64,000 nt of DNA from Bacillota bacterium. GTDB lineage: Bacteria > Bacillota > SHA-98 > Ch115 > JABLXJ01. The DNA is taken from positions 62,001-126,000 of the forward strand of contig JABLXJ010000006.1 of the NCBI GenBank assembly GCA_013178125.1. Reading direction: 5' to 3'. The notes beneath the pieces are model-generated. The model made no database searches. It worked only from the letters and a program-made list of their open reading frames with translations, and was not told where the DNA came from. A program made the translations under genes and the position numbers. The stretch's first letter is position 1, and the number at the start of each line of letters is the position of its first letter. Shown here piece by piece: positions 10,313 through 22,921 of the stretch.

Positions 10313-11102
10313 TTACCTGACCTCTTCCGGGGTTGTGCGGGGTGCAGGGAACCAGTGCCGTGTCCTGTTTGCGATAGTAACAAGACTTAGCATTATCGGG
10401 ACCTCTTCTAACACCCCAACTACAGTGGCCAGTGCTGCTCCCGAATTCAGGCCGAACAGGGATATGGCTACGGCTACAGCAAGCTCGAAGAAGTTGCTCG
10501 CCCCGATCATGGCCGCCGGAGCTGCAACGGTCCTGTCTACCCTCCACCATCGACACCACAGGTACCCTATGGCGAAGATCAGGTATGTTTGAATGGTAAG
10601 TGGAATCGCAATTAGAAGAATGTGGATGGGGTTACGTAATATTATCTCCCCCTGGAAGGAAAAGAGGATTATGAGTGTAAGCAGAAGACCTATGATCGTG
10701 AATGGTTTGATAACCCAATTGACCACCAACGTAACTATAAGCCCTTTGGGCTTTTTCCCCACCCTGACGATACTTCCGAAATCTATCTGGACCATCATTG
10801 GGTAGATCATGAACCAGATCAATATCGCGACTGGAACGGAGACGTGAGCGTATTCCCACTTGCTGAGGATGGTAGGTATACCTGGGAAGACCGATCCCAC
10901 CAGGATCCCGAGCACGATACAGATAGCTACCCAGACAGTTAAGTACTTCTCAAAGACCCCTAGGAATATGCTCGAAAACCCTATCTAAGGGGCTACATCC
11001 CACAATATATTGGGACAATTCCTAAGGATGGCTACAACATATGAAGGCTGTGAGGGTTTTCGAGCAATCTCCTAGCCCCTGTTGCTTTTGGACTCCTTGC
11101 AT
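10313..11102 (-). pseudogene. acr3: ACR3 arsenite efflux gene, split by a MITE and internally deleted
   Basis: The 3' part reads as ACR3: KWEYAHVSVPVAILIWFMIY, later GASNFFELAVAVAISLFG and GVLEEVPIMLSLV. It jumps in frame from VVNWVIKPFT straight to IIGLLLTLIILFSFQGE, so roughly 130 residues are missing, including the segment that carries the essential membrane cysteine (APCTAMVF in relatives). The 5' end is interrupted by the 108-bp element at 10964. Removing it and one CTAG gives MQGVQKQQGLGVFEKYLTVW, a normal ACR3 start, beginning at ATG 11102, 16 bases after the arsR stop and preceded by AAGGGGG. Two lesions make it non-functional. Confidence 0.85.
10964..11071 (-). mobile_element. 108-bp miniature inverted-repeat element, copy A
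   Basis: The ends are 19-bp imperfect inverted repeats: GAATATGCTCGAAAACCCT at one side and GAGATTGCTCGAAAACCCT read inward from the other (16 of 19 match). CTAG flanks both sides (10960-10963 and 11072-11075), so the target duplication is CTAG, or TA inside it. The interior has no transposase. A second copy of the same length with only a few differences lies at 22797 in the opposite orientation. Here it sits after codon 9 of acr3. Confidence 0.85.
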
Positions 11103-11118
11103 AGTGATATTGGCCCCC

Positions 11119-11493
11119 TTAATTAGCTCGTTTACAGAGAGTCCGCGGGTTTCTTTCAACCTCTCTGACCTTCTCCACGATTTCGCTCATTCCCGGCAGA
11201 TCTTGAATGGGCGCACTTAGGAATTGGTCTAGCATATGCCAGGATTCCTCGAGGCCCTCTTTATCTGCTTTATAGAATACCCATTGGCCTTCCCTGGAAC
11301 TCTCCACCAGACCTGCGTCCTTTAGAATGCCCAGGTGATGAGATATAGCAGGCTGGCTGATTCCAAAAATTTCTTCGAGTTCGCATACGCAAAAACTGTT
11401 GATGGATAGCACCTTAAGTATCTTGAGCCTGGTATCCTGTCCCAGAGCCTGTAGAACCCTAATGACTTGTTCAAGCGGGTCTATAACTCTCAC
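11119..11493 (-). CDS. ArsR-family metalloregulator (second copy)
   Basis: 124 residues: winged helix with the metalloid motif FCVCELEE (Cys35, Cys37) and recognition helix SQPAISHHLGILKDAGLV. The C-terminal ~30 residues add CKR at the end. The start is most likely the GTG at 11493, although the GGGG before it is very close. It precedes acr3 by 16 bp, the normal arsR-acr3 order. An AT-rich dyad just upstream probably is its operator. Confidence 0.85.
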   Translation of the reverse strand: MRVIDPLEQVIRVLQALGQDTRLKILKVLSINSFCVCELEEIFGISQPAISHHLGILKDAGLVESSREGQWVFYKADKEGLEESWHMLDQFLSAPIQDLPGMSEIVEKVREVERNPRTLCKRAN

Positions 11494-13576: not shown

Positions 13577-13867
13577 GTGCTGCTATCCCCCCTCTACTTT
13601 GCCATTATGTTCATGGCGTCTTTTTCCCTCAGTGTGCGTATGGGAATAGGAGGAATAGGATACGGGCAGACGGCGAGCCTATCTTTTACGGCTAAAAGCG
13701 ACAACTTCGAACTCGCTATTGCGGTGGCTGTCGGCGTGTTTGACATCAGCTCGGGTCAGACTTTTGCCGCGGTTATCGGGCCGCTGATCGAGGTTCCTGT
13801 TATGATCGGCCTGGTGAAGGTCGCCCTGGCGCTTGGGCGTAAGTATTACCCCGGTAGAGTGGGATAG
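13577..13867 (+). pseudogene. acr3: C-terminal scrap of a second ACR3 arsenite transporter
   Basis: The frame reads [18 protein letters not shown], then [20 protein letters not shown] and [19 protein letters not shown]. These are the last three to four helices of ACR3 in their usual order. About 250 N-terminal residues are missing, and I found no ribosome site that would make this a designed short protein. Sequence differs clearly from the acr3 copy at 10313, so it is another paralogue. It lies 110 bp upstream of a ferredoxin gene on the same strand. A GTGGGATAGG duplication follows its stop. Confidence 0.8.
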
Positions 13868-22654: not shown

Positions 22655-22921
22655 GATTCTTTGTTACATCTGCTCGAGTAATCGTAGCCTGTGCTCTGGC
22701 CGAGGCCCGGGTGCTGAAAGGTGGCCGATTGGTAAATTGGAACACTAATAGCCCCGGTATGGAGGTCACATCGGACGCCAGTTTGCACCAACCTAGGAGA
22801 TTGCTCGAAAACCCTCACAGCCTTCATATGTTGTAGCCATCCTTAGGAATTATCCCAATATATTGTGGGATGTAGCCCCTTCGATAGGGTTTTCGAGCAT
22901 ATTCCTAGTAGCTATATGCAT
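22655..22921 (-). pseudogene. metB: 5' remnant of a metB-like (cystathionine gamma-synthase family) gene, split by a MITE
   Basis: Minus-strand reading: [20 protein letters not shown], then [19 protein letters not shown]. This is the N-terminus of PLP-dependent Met/Cys metabolism enzymes. It ends after ~55 residues where the copper operon terminator begins. The 108-bp element is inserted after codon 5 or 6. Deleting it plus one CTAG restores [14 protein letters not shown] from ATG 22921. The element also offers a new in-frame ATG ([17 protein letters not shown]), but the gene body is gone. Confidence 0.8.
22797..22904 (+). mobile_element. 108-bp miniature inverted-repeat element, copy B
   Basis: Same length and almost the same sequence as copy A at 10964, in opposite orientation. 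CTAG at 22793-22796 and 22905-22908. Visible differences from copy A are single bases (for example TTATCCC for TTGTCCC and CTTCGATAG for CTTAGATAG). No coding capacity for a transposase; it must be mobilised in trans. Confidence 0.85.

Follow-up and report, generated by a model that had tools for sequence, protein, structure and literature searches.

A short CTAG-bordered repeat in acr3 of a Bacillota bacterium and its probable mobilization by an IS1182-family transposase

The acr3 gene of this Bacillota bacterium is interrupted after its ninth codon by a short non-coding sequence, which raises the questions of what the sequence is, how it arrived and what it has done to the gene. The window analysed is a stretch of 64,000 nucleotides (contig JABLXJ010000006.1, positions 62,001 to 126,000). 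We assign a probability of roughly 0.93 to the reading that the sequence is a MITE, that is, a non-autonomous element moved in trans by a DDE transposase of the IS1182 family that duplicates CTAG on insertion.

The element and the interrupted acr3 gene

Features of the locus, in window coordinates:

10964-11071, no strand: MITE copy A, without an ORF; hairpin formed mainly from its terminal repeats
10960-10963, no strand: CTAG, one copy of the target duplication; the frame is restored only if exactly one CTAG is kept
11072-11075, no strand: CTAG, the other copy of the target duplication, on the same basis
10964-10982, plus strand: left terminal inverted repeat of copy A, GAATATGCTCGAAAACCCT, matching an IS1182 end in genome G003, CTAGGAATATGCTCGAGAACCC
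11053-11071, minus strand: right terminal inverted repeat of copy A, GAGATTGCTCGAAAACCCT
22797-22904, no strand: MITE copy B, oriented opposite to copy A and situated between ORFs; its CTAGs are at 22793-22796 and 22905-22908
11076-11102, minus strand: acr3 codons 1-9 (MQGVQKQQG), assigned from the joined translation; orthologous N-termini run into LGFFEKYLT
10313-10963, minus strand: rest of acr3, from LGVFEKYLT to the stop, ACR3-like but without about 123 model positions
10697-10708, minus strand: KPFT-coding repeat, junction of a 399-bp (133-codon) in-frame deletion; intact orthologues have two KPFT
11119-11493, minus strand: arsR, the upstream gene, in the same direction as acr3 (NF033788, 96.5 bits)

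Copy A is 108 bp long and has CTAG at both borders; its imperfect 19-bp terminal inverted repeats, identical at 16 of 19 positions, are seen directly where the initial annotation had placed them, after codon 9 of acr3. The terminal pattern is matched without mismatch at four places in the window, the two ends of copy A and the two of copy B, where chance would give 0.27 even with up to three mismatches allowed. As a single DNA strand, copy A folds with a z of -6.81 relative to shuffles. These values, and the presence of multiple copies in unrelated flanks, mark copy A as more than a chance arrangement. It has no coding capacity, with stops in each of the three reading frames on the acr3 strand; a G-to-T change private to copy A at 10986 produces a TAG stop in the frame that enters the downstream part of acr3, where near-identical copies elsewhere read TCG.

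Deleting 112 bp, the element and one CTAG, joins MQGVQKQQG to LGVFEKYLTVWVAICIV in frame, as the annotation had claimed. It had also placed a ribosome site 16 bp after the arsR stop: the Shine-Dalgarno-like AAGGGGG is present but overlaps that stop (TAA, 11121-11119), and it is the acr3 ATG (11102-11100) that follows the stop at a distance of 16 bp. In the interrupted gene, the frame from this ATG is open for 26 residues and closes 17 codons into the insert; the additional 112 bp shift the reading frame as well. Since copy A brings both a stop and a frame shift, the product from the gene's own start is predicted to be a peptide of no more than 26 residues. Promoter-like or terminator-like sites were looked for at the acr3 insertion and none was found.

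The gene carries a second lesion. TIGR00832 matches acr3 only over positions 1-90 and 214-327. In intact orthologues, two KPFT sites lie at a distance of exactly 399 bp. The window has a single KPFT, preceded by the left context of the first site and followed by the right context of the second. The simplest reading of the loss of 133 codons is a deletion between two short KPFT-coding direct repeats, which is independent of the MITE. The claim that the pre-insertion allele can be read thus holds for the start of the gene but does not necessarily extend to a working gene: because of this second lesion, the allele may already have been non-functional.

At only a little under even odds, the 399-bp deletion came first and the MITE inserted, without consequence, into an acr3 that was already dead, a possibility that touches the effect of the insertion and leaves its identity unchanged. 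The removal of 133 residues between the KPFT repeats favours this order of events, as does the failure to find an intact acr3 elsewhere in the assembled genome, which holds a second, C-terminal acr3 fragment at about 13592-13825 of the window (plus strand; TIGR00832 positions 253-327). Against it, the remaining acr3 frame is free of stops over 216 codons, so that each lesion looks recent and the sequence does not reveal which came first. The frames of arsR, of an arsC-like gene of the LMW-phosphatase type and of an ArsP_1 permease are still open.

Copies of the element and a candidate IS1182 partner

A search for the 108-bp sequence, which the annotation had proposed, returned about ten copies plus a single isolated end in the same genome (3.48 Mb, 54 contigs), and the sequence is accordingly not confined to acr3 and copy B. 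These copies are mostly 82-99% identical; six differ from the consensus by one or two changes and others are 82-86% identical. Copies A and B share 98% identity over the element and its CTAGs. The left end of one copy (L007) is lost, and another (L010) has expanded internally; the latter, at L010:1501-1670 on contig C8, holds an internal run of repeats of about 16 bp resembling GGTGGCTACAACATAT. The flanks of the copies are unrelated to one another. Most copies are intergenic, for example in the spacer between secA and prfB (L002), and two lie inside coding frames. G003, a genome of another family in the same order, contributes about nine further copies, whose identity to the window copy reaches 83%. 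The MITE is absent from G001, of the same genus, and from G002, and a reduced first-pass search of 399 genomes of the phylum recovered no carrier besides the source genome and G003. Plasmids and phages gave no match to the MITE, and scans of viral contigs and of genome contigs, the latter for the terminal pattern and then for the transposase, gave nothing.

The annotation had also suggested looking for a full-length element that combines these ends with a transposase; G003 has one, an IS of the IS1182 family. The terminal pattern pairs there twice at a distance of about 1.95 kb, at C1:12520-14475 and C2:350624-352569. The first IS (L054:1021-2976) contains an intact transposase frame of 541 aa (L054:1201-2826, minus strand), which, when read from an internal ATG (517 aa), scores 296.9 bits against NCBIfam IS1182 NF033551 (cut-off 270) and carries the Pfam domains DDE_Tnp_1_6, DDE_Tnp_1 and DUF772. 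The second (L055:1025-2970) is 90% identical to it in DNA and broken by stops. The G003 IS resembles the MITE in its terminal repeats and in being bordered by CTAG, in one case CTAA. It differs in its length, its transposase and its interior, and also at its ends: GAATAT is found at both, whereas the right end of the MITE reads GAGATT, a difference of three bases. It is usual for a MITE to have nothing but its ends in common with the parent IS (PMC3852290). Relatives of this IS in four further genomes of the phylum, G128, G161, G092 and G246, have 34-56% protein identity, similar ends and CTAG borders, once TTAG.

In the assembly of the source genome, no full or intact IS with MITE ends was found. 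At C2:282263-282291, 29 bp are identical to the right end of the second G003 copy and are taken as a relic of an IS end. The ends of contigs C26, C14, C4 and C8 (L093, L096, L099, L102) hold fragments of a different IS1182 subgroup; these were set aside as the partner, no CTAGGA...TGCTCG end being seen nearby. As IS1182 fragments end several contigs, the gaps of the assembly may conceal a multi-copy IS. At L066:1381-1732 (contig C42), an IS1182-like N-terminal fragment is enclosed by a perfect inverted repeat longer than 20 bp, with arms about 340 bp apart, which is possibly another mini-element.

The repeat is thus short, multi-copy and non-coding, it has ends in common with an autonomous element, located in G003 with none found in its own genome, and it appears with target duplication at independent sites. 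An IS1182-family DDE transposase would recognise the MITE ends of about 19 bp and join the element into a CTAG target, duplicating the 4 bp; copy A would have landed in this way after codon 9 of acr3, causing the early stop and the frame shift. Ends and target together suggest that the G003 IS or a close relative moved the MITE, and, as the assembled genome has no intact partner, the mover was probably an IS now lost from this genome or unassembled. It is improbable that the MITE kept amplifying after its own IS was lost, cross-mobilised by the subgroup represented at the contig ends, the pieces of which are without terminal repeats of the MITE type. We regard it as very unlikely that the family represents a structural or regulatory RNA, or that it spread by another route in the manner of REP or ERIC repeats. 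Its hairpin is strong and most copies lie between genes, as in the secA-prfB spacer, but the ends are of IS1182 type and recur in a complete IS, the target is duplicated, two copies lie within coding frames, and neither an Rfam match nor a promoter- or terminator-like site at acr3 was found.

CTAG as target and its duplication

Nearly every copy is bordered by CTAG despite its unrelated flanks, and the borders of old copies have drifted, for example to CTAA, CTGG and CCAG. CTAG is rare in the window, with 72 occurrences against about 248 expected, and its presence around nearly all copies therefore indicates a strong target preference.

Three independent rulers agree in showing that CTAG is duplicated on insertion and that no target sequence is lost. 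The first is acr3, where the removal of 116 bp or 108 bp, in place of 112 bp, fails to give an ATG-started frame. The second is an IS3 orfA that contains copy L005: with the element and one CTAG removed, a frame of 112 aa with HTH_Tnp_1 (70.3 bits) is restored, and the best plasmid homologue of this OrfA aligns without a break from residue 6 to residue 95, spanning the joint at residue 78. No intact IS3 paralogue was found that could serve as an empty site for the L005 flanks, only a 78-bp piece in G003. The third is a CRISPR array of strict 61-nt period in G161 (L087:1-4464, contig C8), which contains a related IS1182 element; the period of 61 is regained only when 1841 bp, the IS and one CTAG, are removed, while removal of 1845 bp leaves 57 and of 1837 bp leaves 65. 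The G161 IS1182 element thus presents a 4-bp CTAG duplication without target loss. The argument for insertion with target duplication, made in the annotation from the closure of the acr3 frame, is borne out by these rulers.

Empty orthologous sites, which the annotation had also expected, were recovered in part. Class relatives have an uninterrupted acr3 at the site, G008 reading MPVEEGSRAQG followed directly by LGFFEKYLT, but the bases there are CTGG and an exact CTAG empty site was not found in acr3 of the relatives. The secA-prfB spacer of G001 is without insert and measures 46 bp, against about 49 bp left after removal of 112 bp from the spacer that holds L002, a comparison by position, as the stretch cannot be aligned base by base.

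The CTAG borders would also be expected if CTAG belonged to the ends of a 116-bp element and nothing were duplicated, or if a stem-loop were replaced as reported for IS1272 of staphylococci, a member of the same transposase family as the presumed partner, which deletes a target stem-loop without duplication (PMC5678879, PMC4923244). Either account has hardly any probability left. Removal of both CTAGs breaks the ATG frame of acr3 and the IS3 orfA frame alike and would set the G161 spacing at 57 instead of 61; the bases outside CTAG are not palindromic, and conserved acr3 residues are kept on both sides of the insertion site. A stem-loop loss of the IS1272 type is not seen here, the frame and CRISPR rulers and the flanks pointing to a duplicated CTAG with nothing lost. 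Plain 4-bp CTAG duplication is a feature of this IS1182 subgroup, not of the whole family.

Known systems and significance

IS1182-linked MITEs with 4-bp repeats are already described, and the family of copy A, though itself new, belongs to this known kind. MITEPye1 of Paracoccus yeei has IS1182-family ends and 4-bp direct repeats (PMC11578231). It resembles the present family in being short (159 bp) and without an ORF, in its 18-bp IS1182-like terminal repeats and long predicted hairpin, and in the length of its direct repeats; it differs in host, length and sequence, and is reported as intergenic, whereas the present family also interrupts acr3 and IS3 orfA.

A new IS1182-linked MITE family is documented here together with an IS that bears the same ends. 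Independent measures, including a CRISPR array, show that insertion by this IS1182 subgroup entails a simple 4-bp duplication of CTAG, in contrast to the replacement of a stem-loop reported for IS1272. For the organism itself, the locus presents an arsenite-export gene that decays by two separate accidents while arsR, the arsC-like gene and the ArsP-type permease stay open.
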